Below are positions 23,880 to 41,192 of a stretch of DNA of 64,000 bases, piece after piece. Positions within the stretch are counted from its first letter, which is position 1, and every line of letters begins with the position of its first letter. This DNA is from Microbacterium testaceum (GTDB lineage Bacteria > Actinomycetota > Actinomycetes > Actinomycetales > Microbacteriaceae). The translations under genes and the position numbers were made by a program. The notes beneath the pieces were generated by a model. The model worked only from the letters and a program-made list of their open reading frames with translations. It did not search any database and had not been told where the DNA came from. The stretch lies in NCBI RefSeq assembly GCF_001476655.1, contig NZ_LDRT01000027.1, positions 1-64,000 of the forward strand, given 5' to 3'.

Positions 23880-24832
23880 GCGGGCACGGGGTGCGCCGGG
23901 GTGCCGCCGCGCAGCAGCGCCACCATGTCCGTGGTGGCCATGCGCCCCATGCCGTCGACGCCCTCGCGCGTCTGTGCGCCGAGGTGGGCGGTGACGACCA
24001 CGCGGTCGGCGAGGTCCTCGGCCAGCAACGGGGAAGACGCGTCGCCGACGGTCTCGATGGAAAGGGTGTCCGCGGCGTACGCCGCCACGCGCCCACGCCG
24101 AGCGGCGCGAGCGACGGCCTCCTCGTCGACGAGGTCGGCGCGGGCCGTGTTCACGAGCAGGACAGGGCGATCGGCCGCCGAGAGCCACCGCTCATCGATC
24201 ACCTTCTGGCCGCCCGGCGCATGTAGTGTCACGACATCACAGCGGGTCGAGAGGGTCTCGGTGTCGGCGCGCTCCACGGTGTCGAAGAGCGGATCGCCGG
24301 CATCGACCCACGGATCGGCCCCCAGAACGGTGGCGCCGAAGGCGCGCAGGCGCTCGGTCACGAGCCGGCCGATCCGGCCCAGTCCCACCACCCCGACCGT
24401 CAGGGCGGACAGCTCGCGGGCGGGCTTTCCCGACCAATCGCCGGCGCGCACGCGGCGGTCGGCGGCGGGGATGCCGCGCAGCGCGGTCAGCAGCAGAGCG
24501 AGGGTGTGCTCGGCCACCGCGGCCGAGTTCGCCCCGGGGGTGTTCGTGACCGGGATGCCGCGCGCGGTGGCCGCGGCCAGATCGACGTTGTCGACGCCGA
24601 CGCCGTAGCGGGCGATCCCGCGCAGGTTCGGGGCGAGGTCGAGGTGCGCGGCGGTCACCGGTCCGGTGCCGGCGATCCACCCGTCCGCGTCGGCGAGCAG
24701 CGGCGCGAGCTCGTCGATCTCGTGCGACGATCCGGCGCGCACGATGCGGTAGCCCGCCTCCGCGAGGACCGCCTCGGGGTCGTACTCGCCCGACCCGAAC
24801 GAGCGGGAGGTGACCAGCACGACCCCGGTCAC
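23876..24832 (-). CDS. D-2-hydroxyacid dehydrogenase
   Basis: A 318-residue enzyme of the phosphoglycerate/2-hydroxyacid dehydrogenase family. NAD site VGVVGLGRIGRLVTERL (about 146-162), catalytic R231 (NTARADLVDEEAV), H283 (TAHLGAQT) and probable E260. It interconverts 2-keto and D-2-hydroxy acids; in this setting it may reduce or oxidise a C2-oxidised sugar acid. Start is GTG 24832, overlapping the regulator stop (GTGA). No ACT or other C-terminal regulatory domain is present, so it is probably not serine-biosynthetic SerA. Confidence 0.87.
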   Translation of the reverse strand: MTGVVLVTSRSFGSGEYDPEAVLAEAGYRIVRAGSSHEIDELAPLLADADGWIAGTGPVTAAHLDLAPNLRGIARYGVGVDNVDLAAATARGIPVTNTPGANSAAVAEHTLALLLTALRGIPAADRRVRAGDWSGKPARELSALTVGVVGLGRIGRLVTERLRAFGATVLGADPWVDAGDPLFDTVERADTETLSTRCDVVTLHAPGGQKVIDERWLSAADRPVLLVNTARADLVDEEAVARAARRGRVAAYAADTLSIETVGDASSPLLAEDLADRVVVTAHLGAQTREGVDGMGRMATTDMVALLRGGTPAHPVPA

Positions 24833-25780: not shown

Positions 25781-25793
25781 GTAGTATGGCTAC
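25781..25793. promoter_or_regulatory. Operator e between regulator and divergent SDR
   Basis: GTAGTATGGCTAC within CATGTAGTATGGCTACAT. Single copy, with no partner 73 bp away. The plus strand contains TAGTAT (toward the SDR) and the minus strand CATACT (toward the regulator), so one site could cover both -10 elements. Confidence 0.7.
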
Positions 25794-25846: not shown

Positions 25847-26605
25847 ATGTACCGACAAAGGCTGGAACTCACCGATCGGGTGGCGGTCGTGACGGGAGGA
25901 TCCCGCGGGATCGGGCTCGCGGTGGTGACCGCCCTCGAGGAGTTCGGGGCGATCGTCGTCATCGCGGACGTGCTCGACGACGCCGGCAACGCCGCCGCGG
26001 CGTCGTTCGAGAGCGGGCGGGTGTCGTACGTGCACCTCGACGTCACGGACGCCGCCGAGGTCGAGCGGGTCTTCGCCGAGGTGGCCACGCGCCTCGGATC
26101 CGTGGACGTCCTCGTCACCTCGGCCGGCATCGCCAACCACCAACCGTCGCTCGACCTCGAGCGCGAGACGTGGGACCGCGTCCTCGCGGTCAACGCGACA
26201 GGCACGTTCTGGTGCGCACGTGAGGCCGCGCGCCACATGCAGGAGCGCGGCGGCTCGATCGTGGCCATCGGCTCCATGTCGGGGGAGCTCGCGAACGCGC
26301 CCCAGCGCCAGGCCGCTTACAACGCCTCGAAGGGGGCGGTGCACCTCGCCGTGAAGTCGCTCGCGATCGAGTTCGCGGAGCAGGGGATCCGCGTCAACGC
26401 GGTCGCCCCCGGCTATGTCGGCACGGAACTGACCAAGGAAGGCGTCCCCGGCGACTGGTGGGACGACTGGGTGCGCCGCACGCCGATGGGCCGCCTCGGC
26501 GCCCCCGAGGAGATCGGCTCCCTCGTGGCGTTCCTGGCGTCGGATGCCGCGTCGTACATGACGGGTTCGGTCGTGCTGATCGACGGCGGCTACTCGGCCT
26601 GGTGA
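25847..26605 (+). CDS. Short-chain dehydrogenase, polyol/sugar type
   Basis: A 252-residue classical SDR: TGGSRGIGLAVVTAL coenzyme site, D after IVVIAD favouring NAD, catalytic S in AIGSMSG and Y-x3-K in AAYNASKGAVHLA, and a C-terminal VVLIDGGYSAW typical of sugar and polyol dehydrogenases. ATG 25847 follows GGGAGG by seven bases. It is divergent from the RpiR-type regulator and shares operator e, so it is probably the only plus-strand member of the catabolic set. Confidence 0.88.
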   Translation: MYRQRLELTDRVAVVTGGSRGIGLAVVTALEEFGAIVVIADVLDDAGNAAAASFESGRVSYVHLDVTDAAEVERVFAEVATRLGSVDVLVTSAGIANHQPSLDLERETWDRVLAVNATGTFWCAREAARHMQERGGSIVAIGSMSGELANAPQRQAAYNASKGAVHLAVKSLAIEFAEQGIRVNAVAPGYVGTELTKEGVPGDWWDDWVRRTPMGRLGAPEEIGSLVAFLASDAASYMTGSVVLIDGGYSAW

Positions 26606-26639: not shown

Positions 26640-26706
26640 CGATAAACGCTCCCCGTGCTCAGAAACGCGGTGAGAGACCGTTTTTGAGCACAGGGAGCGT
26701 TTATCG
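26640..26706. repeat. Long imperfect palindrome between convergent genes
   Basis: Arms of 22 bases (26640-26661 and 26685-26706) pair with one mismatch; CGATAAACGCTCC pairs with GGAGCGTTTATCG. An inner AAACG/CGTTT stem extends the hairpin to about 28 pairs around an 11-base loop. It lies between the convergent SDR and the membrane-anchored protein gene, and may act as a bidirectional terminator or be a mobile palindromic repeat. Confidence 0.75.
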
Positions 26707-26726
26707 GTGTGGTTGAGGGCTCCGCC

Positions 26727-27747: not shown

Positions 27748-30255
27748 TCAGTCCAGCGCCACCCGCACCTCGTGCGCCCCGGCCTCGACCCGGCGGCGGA
27801 ACCCCGGTAGCTCGATCTCGGCGCGCACGCCGATCGGCACCTCGCACGACAGGATCACCTCGCCGCCCGCGACGCGCCACTGTACCGACAGCTCGCCGTA
27901 CGGGGTCCGCACCGCGGCCGAAGCCGATGAGAGCGCGGTCCCGAGCACCGTCGGGGCTATCCTGGCGTCGCGCCACCCCGGCGAGACCGCCTGCAGCCCT
28001 GCGACGTCGGCGTAGAACCAGTCCTCGATCGTGCCGAGGAAGTAGTGCCCGCGTGAGCGCGACTCCTCTTTCCAGTGCTCCCAGAGCGACGTCGCCCCCC
28101 GCTCGACCCAGAAGCCCCAGCTCGGGAACGTCGTCTGCAGCGCCACGGCCACAGCGACGTCGGCGTGACCGAAACGCGTGAGCTGGGGGAGCAGGTGCTT
28201 CGTCGCAAGAGCCCCCGTCGACAGGTGGTGTCCGCGGTCGACCACGTCGGCGGCCAGGCGGTCGGCCGCGCGCTGCCGGTCGAGCGGAGGAAGGATGTCG
28301 AAGGCCAGGGCCAGAGCGGCGTGCGCCTGGCGATACCCGGCGTCGCCCCGTCCGCGCACCTCGGCGGTGTCGGCATCCCAGAATTCCGCGACGAACGCGG
28401 CACGAGAGGCCGCGGCGGCCCGCTCCCACTCGCCCGGATCGTGGCCGAGCACCCGCGCGATCGCGGCCGCCGTGTCGCACATGGCGATGACGAACGCCGT
28501 CGCCGCGACCCGGGTGTCCTCGGGTGCGTTGCCGCCACCCGGATCCGTCTCGGGACTCACCCAGTCGCCGAGGGTCGTGTCGAAGAGACCGTCGGCCCCG
28601 CGCGCGAGCTCGAAACGCAGGTAGTCGCGCGCGTCGGGCCACACGTCGGCGAGCACCCGCTCGTCTCCGCGCAGCTGGTAGATGTCCCACGGCACGAGCA
28701 GAAGGGCCGAGTGCCACGTCGGTGCGGGAGTCCAGTCCATCCGCCAGCCGCCGTGCGGGGCGATCACCTCGGGAGCTCCCTCGCCATGACGGGATGCCGC
28801 GATGTCGGCGACCCACTTCGCCAGCAGCTCGTGCGTATCGAGGTTGAGCAGCATCATCCGGGCGCCGACCATGCCGTCGCCCGTCCACCCGTTCTTCTCG
28901 TACTTCGGCGTATCGGTGGGGATGCCGTGCAGGTTGTTGAGGATCGTCCGCACCGTGAGCTCGTGCAGGGTGTTCAGCATCGGCGACGACGTCTCGAAGC
29001 GGCCGGTGCGCGCGGCGCGCGTGTGCACCACCCGCGCACGCAGGGTCGGCAGTCGGCGGGCGCGCACCTCGACGTGCTGGAAACCGTGCCAGGTGAATCG
29101 CGGATGCCATCGCAGCGGCCGATCCGCCAGCGTCACGCGATCGGTCTGGAAGCGGCCGTCGAAGTACCCTTTCTCGTCGTCGGAGTTGGGCGTTCCGTCG
29201 GCGCGAAGGCTCTCGCCGAGACGGAGCTCGATCCCCGCGCCCGGATCGGCGTCGGCGTCGACCTCGACCCAGCCCGCGATCACGCGGGGGAACGAGACGA
29301 CCCAGCGGCCCTCGTCGAGCTGCGTCACGCGCGTCGGTTCGAGTGTCTCGCCCTCGACGATCGGGGGCTGTCGTTGGGGGACGGGGGCTCCCCGCGGCCC
29401 CTCGACCTCGCGGGCAACGGCCCAGGCGCTGTCGTCGAATCCGGCGGTGCTCCACCCCGGCTGCTCGAGACGCGCGTCGTAGTCCTCCCCGGCGTAGAGG
29501 TCGTCGAAGCGTGTCGGGCCGGCGGCGGTCCTCCACGCGGAGTCGCTCACGATGACGCGCTCGCCGCGGGCGTCGCGCAGCACGAGCAGCAGGCGTACGG
29601 AGGGATCGGCGTGCCAGGGTGCGGTCTCCCAGTTCCACGTGTTGCGCCCACGCATGCCGGAGAAGCCGCGACCGAGCTCGACGCCGATCGCGTGCCGGCC
29701 GGGGGTCATCCGCGCGGTCACATCGACGACCGTGTATTGCGCGCTCACCTCGTAGTCGGTGAAGCCGGGACCGAGGACGCTCGCATCGGGCACCGCGCCG
29801 TCGATCTCGACGTGGGCGAGGCCCCCGGCCCCGACCACGAGATACGCCTCATCGGGGGTGGCATCCACCTCGAACTCGGTGCGCAGCAGGGGAGCGGCCG
29901 CACCGTCGTCCGCCGCCCCGATGAAGGTCGCCCCCCGCCAGTCGTCGTCGAGGACGGCGGCGACGAACGTCCCCGCCGCGGCGGCGTCTCCGGCGGTGGT
30001 GGTGACGACCACCGTCCACTCGTAGCGGCCGAGTGAGGCCAGCGGGGGGCCGTCGTAGGCGACATCCACGCTGCGGTCGGAGGCGACGGGGCCACTCGAC
30101 CAGATCGTCTCGGTGCCCCGGCGCACGTTCAGACGGTAGGAGAGCTGCCGAACGCCGTCGGTGTCGGAGCGCAGGGCCCACCCGAATCGGGGAGACCCCG
30201 AGATCCCGACCGGGTCGACGGTGTGCTCGACGGTGAGGTCGGCGATGGCGATCAT
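27748..30255 (-). CDS. GH78 alpha-L-rhamnosidase-like glycosidase
   Basis: An 835-residue cytosolic protein of the GH78 architecture: N-terminal beta-domains (1-410), an (alpha/alpha)6 barrel and a C-terminal beta-domain. The catalytic acid region is TDTPKYEKNGWTGD with E453; the canonical motif is D-x-P-x-R-D-E-R-x-G-W, so the arginine and aspartate before the glutamate are K451 and Y452 here. The base region is GATSLWEHW with E726. The changed -1 subsite suggests a substrate other than plain rhamnose. ATG 30255 overlaps the stop of the DUF3863-like gene; no signal peptide, so it acts on imported glycosides. Confidence 0.85.
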   Translation of the reverse strand: MIAIADLTVEHTVDPVGISGSPRFGWALRSDTDGVRQLSYRLNVRRGTETIWSSGPVASDRSVDVAYDGPPLASLGRYEWTVVVTTTAGDAAAAGTFVAAVLDDDWRGATFIGAADDGAAAPLLRTEFEVDATPDEAYLVVGAGGLAHVEIDGAVPDASVLGPGFTDYEVSAQYTVVDVTARMTPGRHAIGVELGRGFSGMRGRNTWNWETAPWHADPSVRLLLVLRDARGERVIVSDSAWRTAAGPTRFDDLYAGEDYDARLEQPGWSTAGFDDSAWAVAREVEGPRGAPVPQRQPPIVEGETLEPTRVTQLDEGRWVVSFPRVIAGWVEVDADADPGAGIELRLGESLRADGTPNSDDEKGYFDGRFQTDRVTLADRPLRWHPRFTWHGFQHVEVRARRLPTLRARVVHTRAARTGRFETSSPMLNTLHELTVRTILNNLHGIPTDTPKYEKNGWTGDGMVGARMMLLNLDTHELLAKWVADIAASRHGEGAPEVIAPHGGWRMDWTPAPTWHSALLLVPWDIYQLRGDERVLADVWPDARDYLRFELARGADGLFDTTLGDWVSPETDPGGGNAPEDTRVAATAFVIAMCDTAAAIARVLGHDPGEWERAAAASRAAFVAEFWDADTAEVRGRGDAGYRQAHAALALAFDILPPLDRQRAADRLAADVVDRGHHLSTGALATKHLLPQLTRFGHADVAVAVALQTTFPSWGFWVERGATSLWEHWKEESRSRGHYFLGTIEDWFYADVAGLQAVSPGWRDARIAPTVLGTALSSASAAVRTPYGELSVQWRVAGGEVILSCEVPIGVRAEIELPGFRRRVEAGAHEVRVALD

Positions 30256-31559
30256 CGGGCACTCCGCAGCGCGCGGAGCTCGGGGGTCTCGCCCCACCGC
30301 TCATCCAGGCCGGCGTCGACGTCGGGGTGCTGCGCGAGGAAGGCGTCCAGGGCGACGGGGCGGTCCTGCGGCCGCGTCTGCTTCTGATTGATCTCGCCGA
30401 GAAGGCTCCACCGGCGATTCCCGCGCTCCGCGGGCTCGGCGAAAGCGCCGGTGTAGGACGTGTAGTCGAAGACCTCGACCGTGTCGCCGACCTGGACGAT
30501 CCCGAGCCGGTAGTCGGCGCACATGAACCAGGTCACCGTCTCTCCCGCGCGCGATGCCTGGACGCCGCTGCCGCTCTGCTGCAGGAGGTAGGCGAGGTCC
30601 TCGTTGTCGGCATGCCGGGCGCGCCACTCGTCGCCGAACCGGCTGATCGTGGTCACCTCGAGGTCGCTCCACCGCTCGCGGAGGCCCCCGAGCCAGCCCG
30701 CCCAGGCGTCGAGCGTGGTGGGGTCGTGCGCGAGCCCGCGCGCGACCTCGCTGATCTCGTAGTTGACCGTCAGCCAGCCGAGGCCGTTGCGCGCGACGTT
30801 GCGGTCGTTCAGGTGCGCCTCGCTCGTGGCATCCAGTTCTCTCAGCGCGTCCGCGCGCGGCAGGCGGTGCAGCGTCTCGATCGGACCGAGCCCGAGCCGC
30901 GAGTTGTACTCGGACGACATGCCCGCGGTGCGGGCGGCGACGAGGTCGACCGTCCAGCCGTCGAGCTGCACCGCGTCGAGGCGGTCGTCGCCGCGGCCGG
31001 GCACGAGGAAGTGTCCGCGCGAGGGGTAGTAGGGGTATGCGAGCGAGCCGTCGCCGTCCTGCAGGTCGATGTCGAACTGGCTCCAGATGTTGCCCTGGAC
31101 GGTGCGGATGCCGAGATCGCGCGCTCCCGCGATGTTCGCGGCCGACAGGAACCCGGCGACGAGCGCGGTCGTCGGGCGGTCGAAATGGGTGTGCAGCAGG
31201 TCGACGGCGTCGGAGATGTCACGGGCGACCTCGTCGCGCGTGCCGTAGAGATTGGCGAAGAATCCGCCGGGCACGAACGTGATGTCGTCGCCGTGCTCGG
31301 TGGCCAGGCGCGCGAGCGTGCGGCGGATGTCGCGGTAGCGCGGGGACTCGTCGGTCAGGGCGCCCCAGGAGAGGGCCCAGGTGAGAGAGGCATCCGGGAT
31401 CGCGCCGCGCACGGCGTCGGAGAACTGCTCGACGAGAGCCGCGGAGTGCAGCGCGGTCTCGTCTTCCCAGAGGGAGGTGTCCCTCGTCGCCTCGATCTGG
31501 TGGCGGCGGACGATGGTGTTGACGGTCAGTCGTCGGCCGAGGGGCGGGCGTGTCTGCAT
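30252..31559 (-). CDS. DUF3863-like putative glycosidase
   Basis: A 435-residue cytosolic protein. It opens with LTVNTIVRRHQIEATRDTSL and contains DASLTWALSWGALTDESPRY, FVPGGFFANLYGTRDEV and PSRGHFLVPGRGDDRLDAVQ, which I associate with DUF3863-type proteins with a polysaccharide-deacetylase-like barrel. That link is from memory and could be wrong. Repeated acidic residues in a barrel-like pattern fit an enzyme acting on carbohydrate. ATG 31559 has GTGAGG upstream, and the gene is first of a two-gene minus-strand operon with the GH78-like enzyme, divergent from the binding-protein genes and sharing operators f and g. Confidence 0.6.
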   Translation of the reverse strand: MQTRPPLGRRLTVNTIVRRHQIEATRDTSLWEDETALHSAALVEQFSDAVRGAIPDASLTWALSWGALTDESPRYRDIRRTLARLATEHGDDITFVPGGFFANLYGTRDEVARDISDAVDLLHTHFDRPTTALVAGFLSAANIAGARDLGIRTVQGNIWSQFDIDLQDGDGSLAYPYYPSRGHFLVPGRGDDRLDAVQLDGWTVDLVAARTAGMSSEYNSRLGLGPIETLHRLPRADALRELDATSEAHLNDRNVARNGLGWLTVNYEISEVARGLAHDPTTLDAWAGWLGGLRERWSDLEVTTISRFGDEWRARHADNEDLAYLLQQSGSGVQASRAGETVTWFMCADYRLGIVQVGDTVEVFDYTSYTGAFAEPAERGNRRWSLLGEINQKQTRPQDRPVALDAFLAQHPDVDAGLDERWGETPELRALRSAR

Positions 31560-31594
31560 GGGGCCTCACCCTAGCCGCCGGTTTCGCCAATCGC

Positions 31595-31607
31595 GTAGTT
31601 CCACTAG
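31595..31607. promoter_or_regulatory. Operator f between glycosidase and binding-protein genes
   Basis: GTAGTTCCACTAG, one mismatch from the consensus in the right half, exactly 73 bp from operator g. Distal for the plus-strand genes, but proximal (36 bases from the start) for the minus-strand DUF3863-like gene. Confidence 0.6.
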
Positions 31608-31667
31608 CAATAGTCACGCTCTTTTGGCCTTTTATGTATTAGATATGGGCTTATGAACCGATTTTGT

Positions 31668-31680
31668 GTAGTCTTGCTAC
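31668..31680. promoter_or_regulatory. Operator g, proximal to the binding-protein genes
   Basis: GTAGTCTTGCTAC; contains TAGTCT as a possible -10 on the plus strand, about 64 bases before ATG 31738. The region 31560-31737 is the most AT-rich stretch of the locus, fitting a divergent promoter region. Confidence 0.7.
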
Positions 31681-31737
31681 CGACACCACGTCCCGCGGAA
31701 TGGACCGCGCGACGATCGACGGAGATAGGGAGTGGCC

Positions 31738-33000
31738 ATGACGAAGTGGCTGAGGCACACGGCGGTAGCGGCGGTCGCTTTGACCACCGCAGGCGCGCTG
31801 AGCGGCTGCGCGGGAGGTGCCGGCGGCGGTCCCACCGAGCTCAGCTTTCTGATGTGGGGCGACGGCGGCGACACCCAGACGGCGTACGAAGACGTCATCA
31901 CGAAGTTCGAAGCGGCCAACCCCGACATCACGGTCAACGCGGAGTTCTTCAACACCAACGACTACGACAACATCCTGAAGACCCGCCTCTCCGGCGGTGC
32001 CGGCCCGGACGTCTACGGCTTCGACCTCGGCAACATCGACACCTTCGTCGCCGACGGGTTCGCAGCCGACCTCTCCGACGGCGGCGAGAGCTACCTGTCC
32101 AAGCTGACTCCCGAGGCGGCGAAAGACAGCCAGCGTGCCGGCGGCACCTACAACCTGCCGATCTCGCTCTCGGGCAACGGCATCATCTACAACAAGGCGC
32201 TGTTCGAGAAGGCGGGCATCGCTGCCCCGCCCACGACGTACACCGAGCTGCTCGCGGACTCCCAGAAGCTGTCGGACGCCGGCATCATCCCCTTCGCGAT
32301 GAGCGCGCAGGACAACTGGTGGCCGCAGTTCATCGTCTACTACGCCCTCGCCGAGCACGGCGCGAACGAAGAGCTGGGCGCCGAGATGGCCGCGGGCAAG
32401 ACGACCTTCTCCGACAGCAAGGCCTGGGCCGAGTCGCTCGACGTCGTCAAGGACCTCACCCCGTACTACATGCCCAACCCGGTCGGCACGAGCCAGACGG
32501 CGGCGCAGTCCGCCTTCCTCGGCGGTCAGGCGGCGATGTTCCCGGCGACGTGGATCCTCTCCGATGCGCGTGAGGCGGGCCTGGACCTCGGGTACATGAA
32601 CTTCCCGACCGTCGACAAGCCGTCGAACGACCTGTGGGGCACCTACCAGGTGCGCTTCGGTGTGAACCCCAACAACGGGGATGCCAAGCTCGCCGCCTCG
32701 CAGAAGTTCCTCGACTTCTTCCTCCAGGACGACACGTACACGGCGTTCCTGGACAAGGTGAAGCTGTTCCCCACCACCAAGGGCGTCGAGATCGGCGCCG
32801 ACGTCGATCCGCTCTTCCCCGAGATGCAGGCGGCCTGGGAGGGCAAGACCTTCGTTGCCGCGTTCTCGCCCACCGACCCGAGCATCCAGGACGCTCTCCT
32901 GGTCGGGCTGCAGAACATCATCAGCGGGCAGAAGACCACCGACCAGGTGCTGGGCGACCTCGACGCCGCCCTCGCGCAGTACCGCGCCAACAACGGTTGA
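31738..33000 (+). CDS. Carbohydrate ABC transporter solute-binding lipoprotein 1
   Basis: A 420-residue extracellular lipoprotein of the CUT1 type. Signal peptide with lipobox L-S-G-C at about residues 21-24, then ELSFLMWGDGGDTQTAYEDV, TRLSGGAGPDVYGFDLGNID and QAAMFPATWILSDAREAG, standard for type 1 extracellular sugar-binding proteins. ATG 31738 follows AGGGAG by five bases; a GTG two codons earlier is less likely. A strong hairpin follows, then a close paralogue. The pair is divergent from the glycosidase operon and controlled by operators f and g. The matching permeases are 3.5 kb downstream. Confidence 0.92.
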   Translation: MTKWLRHTAVAAVALTTAGALSGCAGGAGGGPTELSFLMWGDGGDTQTAYEDVITKFEAANPDITVNAEFFNTNDYDNILKTRLSGGAGPDVYGFDLGNIDTFVADGFAADLSDGGESYLSKLTPEAAKDSQRAGGTYNLPISLSGNGIIYNKALFEKAGIAAPPTTYTELLADSQKLSDAGIIPFAMSAQDNWWPQFIVYYALAEHGANEELGAEMAAGKTTFSDSKAWAESLDVVKDLTPYYMPNPVGTSQTAAQSAFLGGQAAMFPATWILSDAREAGLDLGYMNFPTVDKPSNDLWGTYQVRFGVNPNNGDAKLAASQKFLDFFLQDDTYTAFLDKVKLFPTTKGVEIGADVDPLFPEMQAAWEGKTFVAAFSPTDPSIQDALLVGLQNIISGQKTTDQVLGDLDAALAQYRANNG

Positions 33001-33008
33001 CCCATTCG

Positions 33009-33044
33009 AACCGCCTCGCTCGGGAGTACCCGGGCGAGGCGGTT
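33009..33044 (+). terminator. Intercistronic hairpin between the two binding-protein genes
   Basis: AACCGCCTCGC pairs with GCGAGGCGGTT, extended through a T-G pair and CGGG/CCCG to 16 pairs with an AGTA tetraloop, followed by CCCTTTTCG. It may partly terminate or may protect the upstream message, as in the malE-malF interval. Confidence 0.7.
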
Positions 33045-33068
33045 CCCTTTTCGAAAGTCGGATCCCCC

Positions 33069-34334
33069 ATGCCCCGTTCCCGCGCCCGGACAGCCTCGAC
33101 CGTGACGGCGCTGACCGCCCTGGCCCTGGCATCCCTCACCGGATGCCAAACCGCCTCGAGCGACACGACCACCCTCAGCTTCCTCATGTGGGGCGATGGC
33201 GGCGATACGCAGAAGGCCTACGAGAAGGTCATCGACGCGTTCGAAGCCGAGAACCCCGGCGTCACCGTCAACGCCGAATTCGTCAACACGAACGACTACG
33301 ACAACGTGCTGAAGACCCGCCTCTCCGGAGGAGCCGGCCCTGACGTCTACGGCTTCGACCCGAAGAACCTCACCGACTTCGTCCGCGACGGGTTCGCCGC
33401 GGACCTGTCGGGCGCCGACTTCTTCTCGCGCCTCGACGACGCGGCGGCGCAGGAAGCGCGGCGGGGTGCGGACGGGGACACCGCGTACTCGGTGCCCATC
33501 TCGCAGTCGGGCAACGGGATCATCTACAACACCGCGCTGTTCGAGAAGGCGGGCATCGCCGAGGTTCCCCAGACCTACACCGAGCTGAAGGCGGCGGCCG
33601 AGAAGCTGTCGGCGGCGGGCATCACGCCGCTCGCGATGAGCGCGCAGGACAGCTGGTGGCCGCAGTTCGTCGCCTACTACGCGATGGCGCAGCACGTCTT
33701 CCCCGATGACCCGGGCGCGATCGAGGAACTCCTCTCCGGCGAGAAGACCTTCGCGGACATCCCCGGCTACGCCGAGTCGCTCGAGGTCGTGAAGGATCTC
33801 GTCCCGGCCTACATGCCCGACCCGCTCGGCACGAATCAGTCGGCCGCGAAGTCCGCCTTCCTCACCGGCCAGGCGGCGATGTTCCCGGCGACCTGGATCC
33901 TCTCCGACGCGCGCGCGGCGGGGGTGGAGCCCGGCTACATGAACTTCCCCACCGTCGACGCCGACGTCGCCGACATGTGGGGGAGCTACCTCGTCGCATG
34001 GGGCATCAACCCCGGCAACGATCGAGTCGAAGCCGCCGAGAGCTTCATCGACTTCTTCTTCCAGGACGAGGTGTACACCGACTTCCTGACCTCGGTGAAG
34101 GCGTTCCCCACGACCGAGGGCATCGACGTCTCGGCGGACGATCCGCTCTTCCCCGCCATGACGGCGGCGTGGGAGGGGAAGACCTTCCGCCCCGTCGTGA
34201 TCCCCGCGCACCCGCAGCTGCAGGAGACGCTCCTCGTGGGGATGCAGAACCTCATCGCGGGGCGCAGCGACGTCGACACGGTGATCGCCGACCTCGACGC
34301 GGCCCTCGTCGAGGTGCGAGCGAACGCCGACTGA
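33069..34334 (+). CDS. Carbohydrate ABC transporter solute-binding lipoprotein 2
   Basis: A 421-residue paralogue of the preceding protein, roughly two thirds identical by eye across its length. Lipobox L-T-G-C, then LSFLMWGDGGDTQKAYEKV, TRLSGGAGPDVYGFDPKNL and AAMFPATWILSDARAAGVEP. Differences concentrate after the lipobox and around QHVFPDDPGAIEELLSGEKT, where the first copy has a shorter, different stretch. ATG 33069 has only weak ribosome complementarity (GAAAG). It lies 68 bases after its twin, separated by the hairpin. A tandem duplication with divergence suggests related but distinct ligands or affinities. A strong terminator follows. Confidence 0.9.
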   Translation: MPRSRARTASTVTALTALALASLTGCQTASSDTTTLSFLMWGDGGDTQKAYEKVIDAFEAENPGVTVNAEFVNTNDYDNVLKTRLSGGAGPDVYGFDPKNLTDFVRDGFAADLSGADFFSRLDDAAAQEARRGADGDTAYSVPISQSGNGIIYNTALFEKAGIAEVPQTYTELKAAAEKLSAAGITPLAMSAQDSWWPQFVAYYAMAQHVFPDDPGAIEELLSGEKTFADIPGYAESLEVVKDLVPAYMPDPLGTNQSAAKSAFLTGQAAMFPATWILSDARAAGVEPGYMNFPTVDADVADMWGSYLVAWGINPGNDRVEAAESFIDFFFQDEVYTDFLTSVKAFPTTEGIDVSADDPLFPAMTAAWEGKTFRPVVIPAHPQLQETLLVGMQNLIAGRSDVDTVIADLDAALVEVRANAD

Positions 34335-34345
34335 CCCGCCGTTCT

Positions 34346-34380
34346 CCGAGGCCCCCGCCGCTCGTCGACGGGGGCCTCGG
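34346..34380 (+). terminator. Terminator after the binding-protein genes
   Basis: CCGAGGCCCCCG pairs with CGGGGGCCTCGG (12 bp, 11-base loop), followed by TTGTGG. It separates the binding-protein transcript from the permease operon. Confidence 0.7.
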
Positions 34381-34403
34381 TTGTGGCGATGCCCCGCCCG
34401 TGG

Positions 34404-34416
34404 GTAGCGCAGCTAC
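34404..34416 (+). promoter_or_regulatory. Operator h (distal) of the permease operon
   Basis: GTAGCGCAGCTAC, a perfect palindrome with 5-bp arms, exactly 73 bp from operator i. The only site with C at position 5. No TANNNT. Confidence 0.65.
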
Positions 34417-34476
34417 GCGATAGGTGCTGTTTCGGGGCGGAGAGCCGGCCTGTATGGGCAAGATTCGGGATGCCAT

Positions 34477-34489
34477 GTAGTATGGCTAC
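34477..34489 (+). promoter_or_regulatory. Operator i (proximal) of the permease operon
   Basis: GTAGTATGGCTAC, identical to operator e; contains TAGTAT as possible -10. Initiation near 34491 would leave a leader of about 22 bases with GAGGA before GTG 34513. Confidence 0.7.
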
Positions 34490-34512
34490 ACAACGAGAAC
34501 GAGGATGTGCTT

Positions 34513-36576
34513 GTGACTGCGCTACTGACGATCGCCGACGATCGTGCCGCCGTGTCGTTCGACCCCGAGACCGGCGGGATCGCCGTTCTCGACGCGCCCG
34601 GACTGACACGGGATGCCGCCAGGGCGGCCTCGCTGTTCGTTCTCGAGGTCCCGCGGGGCGGTGACCGCACCGTGGTCATCGAGACCGCCGCCCAGGCGCT
34701 CTCGCACGTCGACCGCGACGGGGACCGCGCGGTGCGTCTGGTCTGGTCGAACCCCCTGACCTCCGCGGGAGAGCGTCTCTCCGGCGAGATCGCGGTGACC
34801 GCACGGATCGTCGACGGCGTGGTGCGCCTCGCCCTGACGTTCCACCTCGACGAGGGCGGCGTCGAAGCGGTGCGCTTCCCCGCGCTGCGCGGCATCCGTC
34901 CCACGAGCGGCGCTCTCGAACTCCGCGGCGTCGACTACTCCACCGGCACGCGCGTCTCGCTCCTGCCGGTGTTCGACTCGAACGCGCCGTACTGGGGCAC
35001 GACGTTCCCCGATTACGCGAGCGGCAACCTCCGCCCCGAACTCGTCGGCACCCCGACGTCGCCCTTCGTGATTCTGGCGGCCGGGAGCGGCGGCCTCACC
35101 GTTCAGCCCGCGGAGCGCACGCTCGACTTCATCGGATGGCGCGCGAGCCTCGAGCCCGGATTCGCCGACAGCCTCCTGCGGCGCGCGGGGTCGGACGGCA
35201 CCGTGACGCTGGACGCGATCCACTTCCCCGAGGGTGACGGTTCCCGGGCCTCGCTTCCGGAGATGATCCTCGCGCCCTTCGCCGGTGCGTGGAGCAACGG
35301 CTTGGCCGCCTACCTGCCCACGCAGGAGCCGACGCGGAAGAGCGCGGCATCCTGGCTCCGAGAGCCGCGCTCATGGCTGCAGGTACAGCTCATGTCGACC
35401 GAGGGGGAGCCCCGGTACGACTTCGACGCCCTCGTCGAGATCATCGAGGAGTGCGCGCGCGAGGGCATCGGGGCGATCCAGATCGTCGGCTGGAACGAGG
35501 GCGGTCAGGACGGTCTCGTTCCCCAGCACCGGCCTGCCGCCAAGCTCGGCGGGGAGGAGGGCCTGCGCCGCGCGCTCGACCGCGCGCGCGAGCTCGACGT
35601 CGCCACCGTGCTGTACGTGAAGTACGTGTGGGTCGAGAAGCCGGGACCGCTCTGGGACGAGCTCGAGCCCTTCGTCTCGCGCGACGTCAACGGGCAGCCC
35701 TACGCGCAGCCCGGTCCGGTCTACCACTCGTCGCGCAAGCGCTACGGCATCGCGACCCCCTGGTACGTGCCGCTGTGCTTCGGCGTCGAGGCGCTGCGCC
35801 GCCGCTTCGCCGACGAGGTCGCCGAGATGGCCGCGTGGGGGGCCGACGGCATCCTGGCCGATGAGTCGCTCTACCACGGGCGGGCTCTGCTGTGCTTCGC
35901 AGACGACCACGCTCACCCCGTCGGGGCGAGCGCCTTCACCTGGGATGCCGCCTTCGTCGAGGACATCCGCGCGGCCCTGGGTGCCCGCGCCGACACCTTC
36001 GTCATCGCCGCCGAGGGCGCGTACGACGACCAGTTCGCGCACTACGACGTGTCGTACTTCCGCAGCGCGTCGCCCGCGCACCGCCCGCTCGGCCGGCAGC
36101 TGCGGCCGGACGCGCGCATCGTCACGGCGCTGACCGGGTTCGACGACCGCTCGATGGTCGCACAGTGCCTTCTGTACGGGTACGCGATGAGCCTCGAGCC
36201 CTACAACTTCAAGGGACGACCGGGCGACATGCCCGCAACCGTGGCCCTCGCCCGCGCGGCCGACGCCCTGCGCGAGCGCCACCGCGACCTGCTCTGGAAC
36301 GGGCGCCTCGTCGTCGACCACGACGTCGTCGCCCACCGTGCAGACGGCACGGTCCACGACCTCCTCACCGTGTGGGAGGGGGCCGACGGCACCCGCGCCG
36401 TCGTCGTGGCCACCTACGACGATGAACCCCTGTCGCTCCATCTGACGGGTCTCGGCGACGCCGAGACCGACGACCTCGACGGGCTCCGCGCCCCGGTCTC
36501 CAAGGGGCGCATCGTCGTGCCCGCCCGGAGCGCGACCGTCGTCCTCCCCTCTTCCGACTCGATTGGATCGCTATGA
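34513..36576 (+). CDS. DUF6259-type putative glycoside hydrolase
   Basis: A 687-residue cytosolic protein. The N-terminal half is beta-rich, like the super-sandwich domains that precede GH barrels; the second half is a TIM-barrel with AIQIVGWNEGGQDGLVPQH, DVATVLYVKYVWVEKPGP, EMAAWGADGILADESLYHG and FVIAAEGAYDDQF. I associate this layout with DUF6259. The D-E of ILADES and the E of AAEGAYD are candidate catalytic acids. I use GTG 34513 because GAGGA lies seven bases upstream; GTG 34507 is an alternative. It is first of five coupled genes (stop overlaps the permease ATG), controlled by operators h and i. Confidence 0.75.
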   Translation: MTALLTIADDRAAVSFDPETGGIAVLDAPGLTRDAARAASLFVLEVPRGGDRTVVIETAAQALSHVDRDGDRAVRLVWSNPLTSAGERLSGEIAVTARIVDGVVRLALTFHLDEGGVEAVRFPALRGIRPTSGALELRGVDYSTGTRVSLLPVFDSNAPYWGTTFPDYASGNLRPELVGTPTSPFVILAAGSGGLTVQPAERTLDFIGWRASLEPGFADSLLRRAGSDGTVTLDAIHFPEGDGSRASLPEMILAPFAGAWSNGLAAYLPTQEPTRKSAASWLREPRSWLQVQLMSTEGEPRYDFDALVEIIEECAREGIGAIQIVGWNEGGQDGLVPQHRPAAKLGGEEGLRRALDRARELDVATVLYVKYVWVEKPGPLWDELEPFVSRDVNGQPYAQPGPVYHSSRKRYGIATPWYVPLCFGVEALRRRFADEVAEMAAWGADGILADESLYHGRALLCFADDHAHPVGASAFTWDAAFVEDIRAALGARADTFVIAAEGAYDDQFAHYDVSYFRSASPAHRPLGRQLRPDARIVTALTGFDDRSMVAQCLLYGYAMSLEPYNFKGRPGDMPATVALARAADALRERHRDLLWNGRLVVDHDVVAHRADGTVHDLLTVWEGADGTRAVVVATYDDEPLSLHLTGLGDAETDDLDGLRAPVSKGRIVVPARSATVVLPSSDSIGSL

Positions 36577-37562
36577 GCAGCACACGCGTCGAGGACCCGC
36601 GGGTCCTCGCCCTGGACGACCCCACCGCGACGCAGGCTGTCACGACGCGCTCGCTGAAGGTGCGCCTGTGGACAGGGCGATCCACCGCGGGCAGGTTCTG
36701 GATCGCCGTCGCCCCCGCGCTGATCCTCTACACCGTCTTCACGGTGTACCCGATGGGACAGGTCATCGTCGCGAGCTTCACCGACGCCCGCGGGTTCAAC
36801 CGCGCGTGGGAGTTCGTCGGGGCCGACAACTTCGTGCGCATCTTCTCCGGCGACCCCGTGCTCATGGAGGCGATCGGGAACACGGCGATCTACGGGTTCT
36901 TCAAGATCATCGTGCAGACGATCCTGGCGTTCCTCATCGCCGTGCTCCTGCACCGCCAGCTCCGGCTCGGCAACATCTACCGCGCGATCTTCTTCGCGCC
37001 GATGGTCATCTCGCCGGTGGCGATCGTGTTCACGTGGAGCTTCATGTACGACCCCACCACGGGCACGTTCAACACGCTGCTGCGCAGCATCGGGCTCGGG
37101 GGCCTTGCGCAGGACTGGCTCGGCAACTACGACCTCGCGCTGTACAGCGTCATCCTGGTCGACCTCTGGAGCGGACTCGGCTTCAACGTCGTCATCTTCC
37201 TCGCGGGGCTCTCGACCATCCCCGGCGAGATCCTCGAAGCGGCGAAGGTCGACGGTGCCCGCGGGTGGAAGGCGATGCGCTACATCACCATCCCGCTCAT
37301 GGTCCCCTCGATCGGTCTCGTGCTCGTGCTGTCGATCAACGGCGCGCTGCGAGCCTTCGACACCGTCTACCTGATGACGAGAGGGGGGCCGGGCAACTCG
37401 ACGCAGCTGTTCATGACCCAGGTGTTCCAGGAGGGCCTGGTGAATAACAACTTCGGCTACGCCTCGGCCATGGCCGTCCTGGTGCTGATTGTGCTCATCG
37501 CGATCGCCGCCGTGCAGAACAGACTCAACAACCGCGTCGCCGCCGAGGAGGGCAACCGATGA
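36573..37562 (+). CDS. Carbohydrate ABC transporter permease 1 (MalF-like)
   Basis: A 329-residue membrane protein with six membrane segments preceded by a roughly 45-residue cytosolic tail. The EAA loop, EAAKVDGARGWKAMRYITIP, is the contact for the ATPase. FAPMVISPVAIVFTWSFMYD and DTVYLMTRGGPGNST are typical of CUT1 permeases. Overlaps both neighbours by four bases. It should pair with the next permease and with one or both binding lipoproteins. No ATP-binding subunit is encoded in the window, so a shared MsmK-type ATPase elsewhere is likely. Confidence 0.93.
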   Translation: MSSTRVEDPRVLALDDPTATQAVTTRSLKVRLWTGRSTAGRFWIAVAPALILYTVFTVYPMGQVIVASFTDARGFNRAWEFVGADNFVRIFSGDPVLMEAIGNTAIYGFFKIIVQTILAFLIAVLLHRQLRLGNIYRAIFFAPMVISPVAIVFTWSFMYDPTTGTFNTLLRSIGLGGLAQDWLGNYDLALYSVILVDLWSGLGFNVVIFLAGLSTIPGEILEAAKVDGARGWKAMRYITIPLMVPSIGLVLVLSINGALRAFDTVYLMTRGGPGNSTQLFMTQVFQEGLVNNNFGYASAMAVLVLIVLIAIAAVQNRLNNRVAAEEGNR

Positions 37563-38419
37563 GCACGCAAGCGAACCCCCGCGTGAACACGCGGTCCCTG
37601 CTCCGCCTGGCCCGCCGCATCCCGATCAATCTGCTCCTGATCGTGCTCAGCATCGCGATGATCTACCCGATCGTCATCATCGTCATCACCGCGTTCAAGC
37701 CGAACCTCGAGGTGCTGACGAACCCGACCGGCCTGCCGCAGGCGCCGACCTTCGACAACTTCGTCACCTCCTGGCAGGATGCCGGCTTCACCAACCTCTT
37801 CTTCAACTCGGTGCTCCTGACGGTCACGAGTATGACCATCGCCACCTTCGTGGCCGCCCTCGCCTCGTACGCGATCGTGCGGCAGGCCACGCGTATCGGC
37901 TCGGGCGTGTACCTGCTGCTCGCGGCGGGCATCTTCCTGCCGATGCAGCTCGCGCTCGTGCCGCAGTTCCGCGTCGTGCGCGACCTGGGTCTCATCAACA
38001 ACTACGTCGGCGTGATCCTCATCTACATCGCCGGCGCGCTGCCCTTCGGCGTCTTCCTCATGGCGGCCTTCATGCGCCAAGTACCCAAGGAGATCGTCGA
38101 GGCCGCGGTCATCGACGGCGCGGGGTACTTCACCCTCTTCCGCCGGATCTTCCTCCCCCTCGCGCGGCCCGCGATCGCGACGTTCTGGGTGCTGCAAGGG
38201 GTGGGCGTGTGGAACGACTACCTCGTGCCACAGCTCCTGCTCACCGATCCGTCCAAGCGAACCCTGACCACGGGCGTGCTCTATTTCAAGGCGCAGTACC
38301 TCGCCGACTGGGGCAACATCATGGCGGCCGTTCTCATCATGAGTCTGCCGATCCTGCTGCTGTTCGTGTTCGCCCAGCGCTTCTTCGTCAGCGGCCTGTA
38401 CGCCGGGGCGGTGAAGTGA
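37559..38419 (+). CDS. Carbohydrate ABC transporter permease 2 (MalG-like)
   Basis: A 286-residue, six-span membrane protein. EAA loop: EAAVIDGAGYFTLFRRIFLP; the FLPMQLALVPQFRVVRDLGL segment and the C-terminal FVFAQRFFVSGLYAGAVK are standard for the second CUT1 permease. Start overlaps permease 1 (ATGA) and the stop is four bases before the GH2 gene. Forms the heterodimeric channel with permease 1. Confidence 0.93.
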   Translation: MSTQANPRVNTRSLLRLARRIPINLLLIVLSIAMIYPIVIIVITAFKPNLEVLTNPTGLPQAPTFDNFVTSWQDAGFTNLFFNSVLLTVTSMTIATFVAALASYAIVRQATRIGSGVYLLLAAGIFLPMQLALVPQFRVVRDLGLINNYVGVILIYIAGALPFGVFLMAAFMRQVPKEIVEAAVIDGAGYFTLFRRIFLPLARPAIATFWVLQGVGVWNDYLVPQLLLTDPSKRTLTTGVLYFKAQYLADWGNIMAAVLIMSLPILLLFVFAQRFFVSGLYAGAVK

Positions 38420-38423: not shown

Positions 38424-41192
38424 ATGACCTCGCTCGACGACCGCGAGCGGGCGCGTGCGCTCGCGTCGCCGCTGTACGGCGACCGCTGGGTGCAGGAGCA
38501 CGCGACTCTGCCCGTCTCCTCGCCGGTCGTCTCGACCGGCGGCGGGCCCGCCGCGAGCAGGTCGGATGCCGGGAATCCGACGCCGAGAGAGGACTCCCCG
38601 CCCCCGCGCGAGACGATCTCGCTCGACGGGGAGTGGCTGCTGGCCGGAGCTCCCGCCGGCCGCGAGTTCGCGATCGAACGGTGGTTCGCCGGACACGCCC
38701 CGCCCGCGCCCGTGGGCTGGCACCGCCCCGACACGGATCGATCGTCGTGGATCCCCGCCGCGGTGCCCGGAACCGTCCAGGCCGCCCTCGTCGCGGCGGG
38801 CGAGATCCCCGACCCGCTGCTGCACGACCACACGCACGCCGAGCTCACCGCGCACGGCGTCCCGAGCGAGTGGCCCTGGTTCTTCCGCCGCACGCGCGTC
38901 GAGGAGCAGCAGTGGTGGTACGCCCGCCGATTCGATGTGCCGGCTGCGTGGCATGGGGAGCGGGTGCGCCTCGCATTCGACGGCGTCGATGAGACGGCAT
39001 CCTTCTGGCTCAACGGTGAACCGATCGCCCGGCACTCCGGCATGTACGGCGGTCCCGACATCGACGTGACGACCCTGCTGCGCGGCGACGGCACCGATGA
39101 GATCGTCGTGCGTATCGACGCACCCCCGCGGGACTGGCACGGTGTCCTCAAACCTTCCCCGGGCTGGGGGTGGCACTACGGGCACCTCATCTCGATGGGG
39201 ATCTGGCGCGGGGTCCGCCTCGAGCGCGTCCCCGACCTCGAGCTCGACGACCTGTTCGTCTCGACCGTCCGGGCCGCGGAGGGCTCCGCGCTCCTGCGCG
39301 TGCAGTGGGATCTCGTGCGGCACACCCCGGACGAGGGAGTCGCCCCGACGCGCGTGCGCGTCCTCGATCCCGAGGGCACGGTCGTCGCCGACGTCACGGC
39401 CGAGGCCGCGGCATCCCGGGGCACGTCCCGGCACGCGGTCGAGATCGACGTGCCGGACGCGCGCCTGTGGTGGCCGTTCGGGTACGGAGCGCAGCCGCTG
39501 TACCGGGTCGAGGCGCGCGTCGACGGTTCCTCGCGCGCGACGACCGTCGGCATCCGTACCGTCGAAATGCGGGCGCTCCCCGAGATGTCGGGTGACGACG
39601 TCTACGACTGGCAGTTCGTCGTCAACGGCCGCGCCCTCTTCCTCAAGGGGGCCAACTGGTGCTTCACCGATCCGATGGCGCGTCGCGGATTCGAGATCGA
39701 TCGGCACATCCTCGACCTCTGCGTGCGGGCGAACCTGCAGATGCTCCGCGCCTGGGGCGGCGGCACCGTAGAGAGCGACGCCTTCTTCGACGAGTGCGAC
39801 CGCCGCGGCATCCTGGTCCTGCAGGAGTTCCCGTTGACCTTCGGGCTGGATGCCACGGGTGCCACGCTCGCCACCGTCGACGAGCAGGCGTCGCGCATCG
39901 TCCGGCGGCTGCGTTCGCACCCCTCTCTCGTCATGTGGGGCGGGGGGAACGAGAACCCCGACACGATCTCGGGCGACGATCTGCTCACCGTCATCGGCAC
40001 ACGCGTGCGGCAGTACGACCCGACCCGTCCTTTCCACCGCACCGACCCCTGGGGCGGTAGCGAGCACTACTACGGCGTCTATCACGAGGGCGAGCCCGTG
40101 GAGGCGTACGCGACGCACGTCCCCCCGGTGTTCGGGGAGTACGGGCTATCCAGCCAATGCGATCTCGACAGCATGGAGCGCTTCCTCGATCCGGCCCTGC
40201 TCGAGCAGTGGCCGCCTCCCGCGCACGGCGCGATCCTGCAGCACCAGGCGCAGTTCTCGCTCTTCGACCTGTTCAAGCAGGCGCGCTACGCCCACTACGG
40301 TCCCCTCACCGACTGGGCGACGTTCGTCGAGTACTCGCAGCTCGCCCAGGGCGACGCGCTCCGGTTCGCCTCGGAGCGGCTGCGCGCGCACGCCGGCGAG
40401 AGCACCGCGGCCTACTGGTTCTACAAGGTCGGCGAGGTGTTCCCCGGCGCCTCGTGGGCGATCGTGGACTACTACGGTCGCGCGAAGCTGTCGTACTACC
40501 GCGCGCGCCAGTTCGGCGCCGCGCGCTCCGCGTTCGCGGTGTACGACCGGACAGCGTTCGCCGCGGGCGAGACGTTCTCGGCCGAGGTGCACGCGGCGAA
40601 TGACACGCCGCACCCCCTGGCCGGCTCGGTGACCTCTCGTCTCTACGACGCGCGATTCCGCGTGCTGGCCGAGCGCACGGCATCCGTGGATCTGGATGCC
40701 GACTCCCACGCCCTCGCGTTCACCCTCGAGGCCGTGGTCCCCTCCGACGAGGTGCTCGTGCTGGCTGCGTACCTTCGCGACGAGCGAGGCGAGCGTGTCT
40801 CGTCGGCCTGGTACGCGCTCAACGCACAACCGAAGAGCGGCGAGGTCGCGGCCCTCGAGGCCGCGCTGCTCGACAGCCTGACCGACCGGCCGATCGAGGA
40901 ACTGCTCGCCCCCTACGCGACGGGACCGGCTCCGTTGAAGGAGCAGCCCCGCACGCGTCTGGAGGCCCGTCTCGACGGGGATGTGCTGCGCGTGCGCAAC
41001 GCGGGCGAGGTGCCGGCGCCAATAGTGCTCATCGAGGAGTTCCCCACCGCCCCGGGGGCCTGGCTTGACGACAATGCCTTCGGGCTCGAGCCCGGTGAGG
41101 AGCGCGTCATCGCGTTCGACCTGGCCGGTGCTTCGTGGAACGCCCCGCGCGTGCGGGCCTGGAACGCGGATGCCGTGGCGGTCACGTCATGA
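38424..41192 (+). CDS. GH2 beta-mannosidase-like glycosidase
   Basis: A 922-residue cytosolic enzyme with the five-domain GH2 plan: jelly roll (about 70-240), Ig-like domains, TIM-barrel (about 390-700) and C-terminal beta-domains. Acid/base glutamate in VMWGGGNENPD, nucleophile glutamate in VFGEYGLSSQCD. The arrangement resembles beta-mannosidases more than beta-galactosidases or glucuronidases. It has an unusual roughly 65-residue, proline- and serine-rich N-terminal extension. It is cotranscribed with the sugar permeases, so it likely cleaves the imported oligosaccharide; a second GH2 beta-mannosidase (49737-52202) lies in another locus. Confidence 0.85.
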   Translation: MTSLDDRERARALASPLYGDRWVQEHATLPVSSPVVSTGGGPAASRSDAGNPTPREDSPPPRETISLDGEWLLAGAPAGREFAIERWFAGHAPPAPVGWHRPDTDRSSWIPAAVPGTVQAALVAAGEIPDPLLHDHTHAELTAHGVPSEWPWFFRRTRVEEQQWWYARRFDVPAAWHGERVRLAFDGVDETASFWLNGEPIARHSGMYGGPDIDVTTLLRGDGTDEIVVRIDAPPRDWHGVLKPSPGWGWHYGHLISMGIWRGVRLERVPDLELDDLFVSTVRAAEGSALLRVQWDLVRHTPDEGVAPTRVRVLDPEGTVVADVTAEAAASRGTSRHAVEIDVPDARLWWPFGYGAQPLYRVEARVDGSSRATTVGIRTVEMRALPEMSGDDVYDWQFVVNGRALFLKGANWCFTDPMARRGFEIDRHILDLCVRANLQMLRAWGGGTVESDAFFDECDRRGILVLQEFPLTFGLDATGATLATVDEQASRIVRRLRSHPSLVMWGGGNENPDTISGDDLLTVIGTRVRQYDPTRPFHRTDPWGGSEHYYGVYHEGEPVEAYATHVPPVFGEYGLSSQCDLDSMERFLDPALLEQWPPPAHGAILQHQAQFSLFDLFKQARYAHYGPLTDWATFVEYSQLAQGDALRFASERLRAHAGESTAAYWFYKVGEVFPGASWAIVDYYGRAKLSYYRARQFGAARSAFAVYDRTAFAAGETFSAEVHAANDTPHPLAGSVTSRLYDARFRVLAERTASVDLDADSHALAFTLEAVVPSDEVLVLAAYLRDERGERVSSAWYALNAQPKSGEVAALEAALLDSLTDRPIEELLAPYATGPAPLKEQPRTRLEARLDGDVLRVRNAGEVPAPIVLIEEFPTAPGAWLDDNAFGLEPGEERVIAFDLAGASWNAPRVRAWNADAVAVTS

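Follow-up and report, generated by a model that had tools for sequence, protein, structure and literature searches.

The 64-kb stretch of Microbacterium testaceum DNA that was analyzed (the window, from a 4.02 Mb genome) encodes two uncharacterized proteins that match Pfam families named only as domains of unknown function (DUF). One is a DUF3863 plus DUF3864 protein of 435 amino acids, encoded on the minus strand (30252–31559). The other is a DUF6259 protein of 689 amino acids, encoded on the plus strand (34507–36576). Both genes are probably parts of one system for the use of an oligosaccharide under the presumable control of an RpiR-type regulator, and the DUF6259 protein would act in it as a retaining α-glycosidase. 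An initial annotation had described both products as barrel-type putative glycosidases, linked to sugar import in one regulon, and as good candidates for new hydrolase families. Both genes exist as described, with matches above the Pfam cut-offs. The frame and the end of the DUF6259 gene also stand, but its start is the GTG at 34507 and not the in-frame GTG at 34513 that was used earlier.

The two genes are connected by a palindromic operator. The palindrome GTAG-N5-CTAC occurs eight times in the 64 kb, compared to 0.07 expected occurrences, and none of 100 shuffled sequences reaches this number. All eight sites are intergenic and are distributed over five intergenic regions, which are flanked by RpiR, import, glycosidase and sugar-metabolism genes. 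A stricter form, TGTAG-N4-GCTAC, is present four times in the 4.02 Mb genome, with all four copies in the window, whereas the reversed pattern used as a control occurs 30 times. In front of the DUF6259 gene, GTAGCGCAGCTAC (34404–34416) is followed by GTAGTATGGCTAC (34477–34489), which lies in the promoter region. The region between the DUF3863 gene and the gene of the first sugar-binding protein (SBP1) contains GTAGTTCCACTAG (31595–31607), with one mismatch, and GTAGTCTTGCTAC (31668–31680). A third pair, GTAGTAAGACTAC (22853–22865) and GTAGTCGAGCTAC (22926–22938), is found upstream of isomerase, aldolase and kinase genes. Each of these three pairs has a spacing of exactly 73 bp. The spacing is 106 bp for GTAGTAAAGCTAC (17565–17577), upstream of the gene of a secreted protein of 965 amino acids, and GTAGTCCAGCTAC (17671–17683). 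A further copy of GTAGTATGGCTAC (25781–25793) separates the RpiR gene from an SDR dehydrogenase gene. Since 73 and 106 bp correspond to about 7 and 10 helical turns, two RpiR units could be placed on one face of the DNA or could close a small loop, and the paired spacing would thus point to a phasing along the helix or to DNA looping by RpiR.

The genes are additionally linked by their arrangement. The DUF6259 gene and the gene of the first ATP-binding cassette (ABC) permease (36573–37562, plus strand) overlap by 4 bases, as do the two permease genes at 37559 (second permease: 37559–38419, plus strand). On the other strand, the ATG (30253–30255) of an α-L-rhamnosidase gene of the glycoside hydrolase family 78 (GH78) type overlaps with the DUF3863 stop codon. 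Both permeases were assigned from Pfam matches and coordinates. Judged from the sequence, the DUF3863 and DUF6259 genes share the palindromic operator with the importer, GH78, RpiR and sugar-metabolism genes. The proposed single regulon and its link to sugar import are supported at this level by shared operators, overlapping genes and a conserved locus, and the regulatory link is confirmed and wider than had been claimed.

The clearest sequence-level relation found for the DUF6259 protein is the one to GH13 (clan GH-H). The main family alignment contains 66 rows and uses 65 of 80 scan loci. Eight loci were excluded for a stop inside the match (L017, L033, L035, L049, L075, L076, L081, L082), four for being short (L056, L071, L074, L083) and three by choice (L007, L025, L042). 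Compared by hhalign to four GH13 proteins of the same genome, this alignment gives a match with a probability of 90.4 (P 1.4e-6, score 59.1) over barrel strands 2–5. In a rerun the score is 59.7, versus 29.1 for the best of 60 column shuffles and 13.2 for the reversed control. Other controls against the DUF6259 profile stay at 0.06% (four GH2 proteins), 0.3% (DUF3863), 1% (one GH31-like protein, named by eye) and 1.4% (one GH2 protein). Individual family members show weak matches to Alpha-amylase (PF00128; 5 of 66, best E 0.017) and to DUF3459, the C-terminal family of Alpha-amylase (8 of 66).

The alignment places D452 on D195 and E503 on E256 of the GH13 protein L117, and these two positions are invariant in the four GH13 rows. 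In GH13 enzymes, the region II Asp is the nucleophile and the region III Glu the acid/base, and region I carries a conserved Asp and His. D452 and E503 are invariant in all 66 rows of the DUF6259 alignment. As D452 was itself part of one of the two search patterns, the 44 rows matching only the other pattern were counted separately, and both residues are kept in every one of them. D452 lies at the end of barrel strand 4 and E503 at that of strand 5. The barrel and the positions of the catalytic Asp and Glu of GH13 align with those of the DUF6259 protein. In general, invariant residues are enriched after the barrel strands (16/64, versus 15/241 in the rest of the barrel; Fisher P 6e-5). Position 547, after strand 7, carries an acid in all 66 rows (60 D, 6 E). 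D452 is therefore predicted to be the nucleophile and E503 the acid/base, and D547 is a possible third acid. There are differences from GH13 as well: the DUF6259 protein has an N-terminal β-sandwich domain and lacks the region-I Asp and His. The latter residues (D86 and H91 of L117) align with Y370 and W375, of which W375 is invariant (66/66), which makes it probable that the main pocket does not hold its sugar in the way that amylases hold glucose.

The structural model, obtained from the 66-row alignment with a mean predicted local distance difference test score (pLDDT) of 93.0 and a predicted template modeling score (pTM) of 0.91, contains a (β/α)8 barrel flanked by β-sandwich domains on both sides. 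In Foldseek, the top matches are the A-type blood galactosaminidase of Flavonifractor (FpGalactosaminidase; E 3.5e-26), ZgGH129 and GH101, followed by GH36 and by NagBb (GH129). GH129 (NagBb, ZgGH129), GH101 and FpGalactosaminidase are thus the best whole-length structural matches, and the GH129-type order of β-sandwich, barrel and β-sandwich is present in the model. The specificities of GH129 are for GalNAc, with the assistance of Ca, or for anhydrogalactose. VIA-align gives Z 27.5 for 5opq (GH129; root-mean-square deviation (rmsd) 4.6, 569 residues aligned), Z 27.2 for 5wzp (GH129; rmsd 3.6, 540 aligned), Z 27.0 for 9ayu and Z 24.4 for 3dhu (GH13; 340 aligned, comprising the barrel and the C-terminal part). 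Despite the similar fold, the identity to GH129-type chains is just 12–14% and their Pfam family, PF11308, does not match. A profile relation to GH129 was rejected, as the comparison to two GH129 sequences reaches 6% and the match ends ahead of the catalytic part. Taken together, model and profile show the DUF6259 protein to be a GH13-related (β/α)8 barrel between two β-sandwich domains.

At the level of Pfam, the protein matches DUF6259 (PF19773) with 31.1 bits (cut-off 28.7, E 1.7e-7) and stays below the cut-off for DUF5696 (PF18952; 22.2 versus 25.6 bits). All 66 alignment members match DUF6259 at E ≤ 1 and 54 of them also match DUF5696; the library gives no function for either family. No publication on DUF6259 or DUF5696 was found in a literature search, CAZy numbers being outside that search. 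A PDB sequence search with the protein alone returned a single chance match (E 0.54), and neither the DUF6259 nor the DUF3863 protein matches an NCBIfam family at E 0.01.

Several observations weigh against the assignment of the DUF6259 protein as a GH13-related cytoplasmic glycosidase. Firstly, a single GH13 sequence still matches at 88%, but over strands 2–3 only, without the catalytic residues. Secondly, in an hmmsearch with the DUF6259 profile the GH13 chains reach a whole-sequence E of 8.5e-4, with a best single stretch at E 0.13. Thirdly, the hhalign match ends before strand 7, so that D547 is assigned from its position alone. Fourthly, the protein has no match to PF00128 (GH13) or PF11308 (GH129) at E ≤ 1 and would by Pfam belong to neither family, and no tested enzyme of the group was found in the PDB sequence search and the literature. 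Lastly, the cytoplasmic site depends in part on the lack of a signal-peptide-like start, which was judged by eye. The interpretation nevertheless appears strong for this protein, which is very probably a retaining α-glycosidase and a distant, uncharacterized cousin of the amylases.

The DUF3863 protein is best described by its homology to a known structure. It matches DUF3863 (PF12979) with 178.9 bits (cut-off 27, E 1.6e-52) and DUF3864 with E 2.4e-6, also above the Pfam cut-off. Over residues 9–411 it matches PDB entry 3LM3 (E 6.3e-67), the DUF3863/DUF3864 protein BDI_3119 from Parabacteroides distasonis, of which the structure dates from 2010 and bears the title ‘putative glycoside hydrolase/deacetylase’. 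In the literature search, no publication on DUF3863 and no function in print for 3LM3/BDI_3119 were found; the entry occurs in a table row of PMC3227456. A DUF3863 profile search in the PDB retrieves 3LM3, and the next matches are 3C proteases with a chance-like E of 0.04. The model of the M. testaceum protein superimposes on 3LM3 with Z 30.2 (rmsd 3.6, 372 aligned). Below 3LM3, the fold matches are deacetylases (best four Z 19.4–22.1), PuuE allantoinase (Z 20.4) and GH57 (up to Z 17.6). In the model, the protein has a barrel of the type of carbohydrate esterase family 4 (CE4) and GH57, which differs from the (β/α)8 barrel of the DUF6259 protein. That both proteins are barrel-type thus holds. 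That both are glycosidases is supported for the DUF6259 protein by its fold, GH13-like profile and invariant D452 and E503, and both motifs that had been proposed for mutation, GADGILADES and FVIAAEGAY, are within this protein; the fold relatives of the DUF3863 protein include deacetylases and an allantoinase besides glycosidases.

In total, 86 residues do not vary across 15 DUF3863 sequences, among them E23, D33, E34, H38, D200, D205, E228, H249 and E268. The alignment that was built (A6) contains 12 of these 15 rows, and seven of the eight over-cut-off matches from a Bacteroidota order were used, the partial L099 being dropped. Quite possibly, the protein belongs to the GH57/GH38 superfamily and cleaves or transfers glycosyl groups without a metal, and E23, D200, D205, E228 and E268, all kept in 15/15 rows, are candidates for its catalytic acids. 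The GH57 fold matches are in line with this, as are the genes in the vicinity: DUF3863 adjoins GH78 here and is found near GH3, GH53, GH2, GH38 or GH106 in Bacteroidales. In GH57, the Glu nucleophile sits after strand 4, but the post-strand-4 position of DUF3863 (141) is variable (A/D/H/R/N/E/K). The sequence link to GH57 also stays below the cut-off, as it consists of a PF12979 match to a GH57 protein in one of 295 genomes (E 6.2e-4, 18.9 versus 27 bits) and an hhalign value of 4.7%, and GH38 was rejected as a relative at 0.5%.

Another possibility, on balance unlikely, is that the DUF3863 protein is a hydrolase of the carbohydrate esterase/deacetylase type that takes an acyl group off the imported sugar. 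Polysaccharide deacetylases are its best non-family fold matches (3rxz, E 7.6e-6; 3qbu, Z 22.1), and the title of 3LM3 includes the term deacetylase. CE4 deacetylases bind their metal by the motifs TFDDG and H(S/T)xxH. In an exact-pattern test, the former is absent from all 15 DUF3863 sequences and the latter is present in one of 15, and H38 and H249 are the only two His among the invariant residues. No checkable catalytic signature fits the protein.

The neighbors of DUF3863 genes in Bacteroidales, surveyed for a chosen set rather than for every gene, encode GH3, GH53, sulfatase, GH2, GH95-like, GH38, GH123-like, DUF5703 and GH106 proteins and a sugar transporter. M16/M60 peptidases, URO-D, an MTTB methyltransferase and a heparinase-like protein are encountered as well, and these neighbors are too mixed to name a substrate. 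Together with the low pLDDT of the model (63.8, with residues 157–227 below 50; built from a 7-row alignment of close relatives) and the faint GH57 values, this mixture weighs against the action on an oligosaccharide that is proposed for the protein below. A sugar-related role in a broader sense is likely. The seven related Bacteroidales proteins have strongly hydrophobic N-termini (15-residue maximum 1.6–2.7), in contrast to the eight actinobacterial ones (−0.12 to 0.05), although five of the actinobacterial rows (L008 to L013) begin at the match and not at the gene start.

For the DUF6259 protein, it is improbable that the enzyme is of a GH36/GH31-type, α-galactosidase-like kind using Asp/Asp catalysis instead of the Asp/Glu pair of GH13, GH101 and GH129. 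GH36 enzymes belong to the top fold matches and cover almost the entire model (Foldseek E 1.2e-19; 4fnp, Z 24.2, rmsd 6.2, 573 aligned). The second catalytic Asp of GH36 is located after strand 6, but according to the strand assignment of the model there is no acid just after this strand (R519, S520). Moreover, the invariant acid E503 ends strand 5 and aligns with the GH13 Glu, and the GH31-like control remained at the 1% given above.

Both proteins are rare in the order. Among 396 genomes of the order, the DUF6259 protein has matches in two (its own and one at 38% identity) and DUF3863 in its own only. A scan of 84,980 species genomes yielded 132 places with DUF6259 relatives, of which the best 80 were kept. 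These include eight close relatives in Microbacterium/Microbacteriaceae records (67–85% identity) and one in Thermocatellispora (60%). The nearest locus found is that of M. testaceum NS283, with 85% identity over the DUF6259 protein and 89–98% over its neighbors. The remaining relatives (27–38%) are by record title mostly from Chloroflexota, Bacillota, Spirochaetota, Planctomycetota, Acidobacteriota and other Actinomycetota. According to the titles, the best 80 of the 132 cover at least eight phyla. Two metagenome-assembled genome records titled Bifidobacterium breve (L016, L018) carry DUF6259 relatives as well, although the genome of L016, with 3.3 Mb, seems too large for this name. DUF3863 is present in 6 of 25 examined genomes with a DUF6259 relative (five Microbacterium and Thermocatellispora). 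In the Bacteroidota order to which a Proteiniphilum belongs, 6 of 295 genomes have a DUF3863 match above the cut-off.

An identical order of GH78, DUF3863, both binding proteins, DUF6259, both permeases, GH2 and an S51-like gene is found in six Microbacterium loci, being those long enough to be read (L005, L008, L009, L010, L012, L013; the contigs of L006 and L007 are short). In Thermocatellispora, a 20-kb stretch (L107) contains two GH2, permease, DUF3863, GH78, SDR, RpiR, kinase and aldolase genes. About 34 kb from this stretch, the DUF6259 gene is found beside a binding-protein gene of its own. By these comparisons, the locus is conserved in Microbacterium and also, as two separate parts, in Thermocatellispora. 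Of the 64 loci outside Microbacterium with a flank of 3 kb or more on one side, 16 have a same-strand ABC permease gene within 400 bp of the DUF6259 gene, which is upstream in 15 cases and downstream in one. By record title, 14 of these 16 loci belong to Chloroflexota. The count of 16 is a minimum, as permeases were recognized by similarity to those of the window (E 1e-10). In the other 48 loci no ABC permease was recognized within this distance, which speaks against a general link to import.

The operators are conserved together with the genes. The 73-bp pair in front of DUF6259 is kept in 8/8 Microbacterium-type loci and the one in front of SBP1 in 6/6 loci holding that region; in the eight loci, sites recur at whichever promoters these contain. 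In Thermocatellispora, two operators are located between a permease gene and DUF3863, and others beside the SDR gene and in front of the binding-protein and DUF6259 genes. One Microbacterium locus (L009) has an extra 73-bp pair (20599, 20672) outside the core locus. The RpiR protein is the likely switch of the regulon. Its pairing with the operators is a prediction, yet it is highly improbable that they belong to another regulator and mark a wider, unrelated regulon, since the RpiR gene and the SDR gene have one operator between them, the strict form is confined to the window, and the sites recur at the same places beside corresponding genes in the eight Microbacterium-type loci and Thermocatellispora.

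The other genes of the regulon encode transport, glycosidase and metabolic functions. SBP1 (31732–33000) and SBP2 (33069–34334, start picked by eye), both on the plus strand and matching SBP_bac_1, are tandem paralogs, so two sugar-binding proteins are served by a single permease pair. The permease genes are followed by a gene for a GH2 family enzyme with a mannosidase-type Ig domain according to Pfam (38424–41192, plus strand). The GH78 gene (27748–30255, minus strand) matches Bac_rhamnosid6H with E 5e-86, and five rhamnosidase domain families score above the cut-off in its product. The RpiR-type regulator, recognized by its HTH_6 and SIS domains, is encoded at 24829–25764 on the minus strand, divergently from the SDR dehydrogenase gene (25859–26605, plus strand, start approximate). 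Further genes on the minus strand encode a phosphotriesterase-family lactonase-like protein and a D-2-hydroxyacid dehydrogenase (22950–24856), an SDR, an FGGY sugar kinase, a shikimate-dehydrogenase-like protein, a DeoC-like aldolase and a cupin phosphoglucose-isomerase-like protein (18324–22810), and a KDPG/KHG aldolase (17710–18327, E 8.4e-62).

The protein of 965 amino acids (14613–17510, minus strand) has a signal-peptide-like start and an Ig-like/choice-of-anchor C-terminal part. Pfam gives a weak GH30 C-terminal match only (E 0.0024), without a catalytic family, and there is no PDB match. In its N-terminal half, inspection by eye revealed NEP and SEMG motifs of the kind typical for glycosidases of clan A. 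This half of the protein, whose gene lies behind two operators, is clan-A-glycosidase-like. A second GH2-like gene (49737–52295) lies about 8.5 kb from the cluster and shares 58% identity with a GH2-like gene that adjoins the GH2 gene in Thermocatellispora; the scan of the 64-kb window gave no full operator match near it. A long, near-perfect inverted repeat (CGATAAACGCTCCC...GGGAGCGTTTATCG, around 26640–26707) follows the SDR gene and is perhaps a two-way terminator. Between 30200 and 36700, a scan for consensus promoters and terminators gave nothing above chance.

In the system as proposed, the secreted protein (14613–17510) would produce the oligosaccharides. After import, the DUF6259 protein would cleave an α-linkage in the cytoplasm, where D452 would serve as the nucleophile, E503 as the acid/base and D547 as the third acid. 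Less surely, the DUF3863 protein would act on a further group of this oligosaccharide, removing or opening it immediately ahead of the GH78 step or directly after it, using an active site in its CE4/GH57-type barrel without the CE4 metal motif. GH2 and GH78 would complete the breakdown, and the freed sugars would enter metabolism via the FGGY kinase and the KDPG aldolase. RpiR would sense a sugar phosphate and thereupon release the paired operators. The GH78 gene in the cluster points to rhamnose. It is tentatively proposed that DUF6259 is an uncharacterized family that joins GH13 catalytic motifs and a GH129/GH36-type domain layout, with a main pocket changed for an unusual α-linked sugar, and that DUF3863 represents a branch of the deacetylase/GH57 barrels that cleaves sugars without the usual metal motif, both acting on the same imported rhamnose-containing oligosaccharide.

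The suggestion of new hydrolase families has to be adapted: both families already have a Pfam name and DUF3863 a structure, 3LM3, but both are indeed uncharacterized. Beyond the library annotation, the analysis adds DUF6259 as a putative glycosidase group related to GH13, for which catalytic residues are predicted, and the regulon with its 73-bp paired operators. As the relatives of DUF6259 are spread, by record title, over eight phyla or more, one assay would give a function to a widespread unnamed enzyme group. If true, the proposed function would show how GH13-type catalysis sits in a GH129/GH36-like body, and the regulon gives DUF3863 a biological setting and a weak hint of a substrate, which may contain rhamnose.

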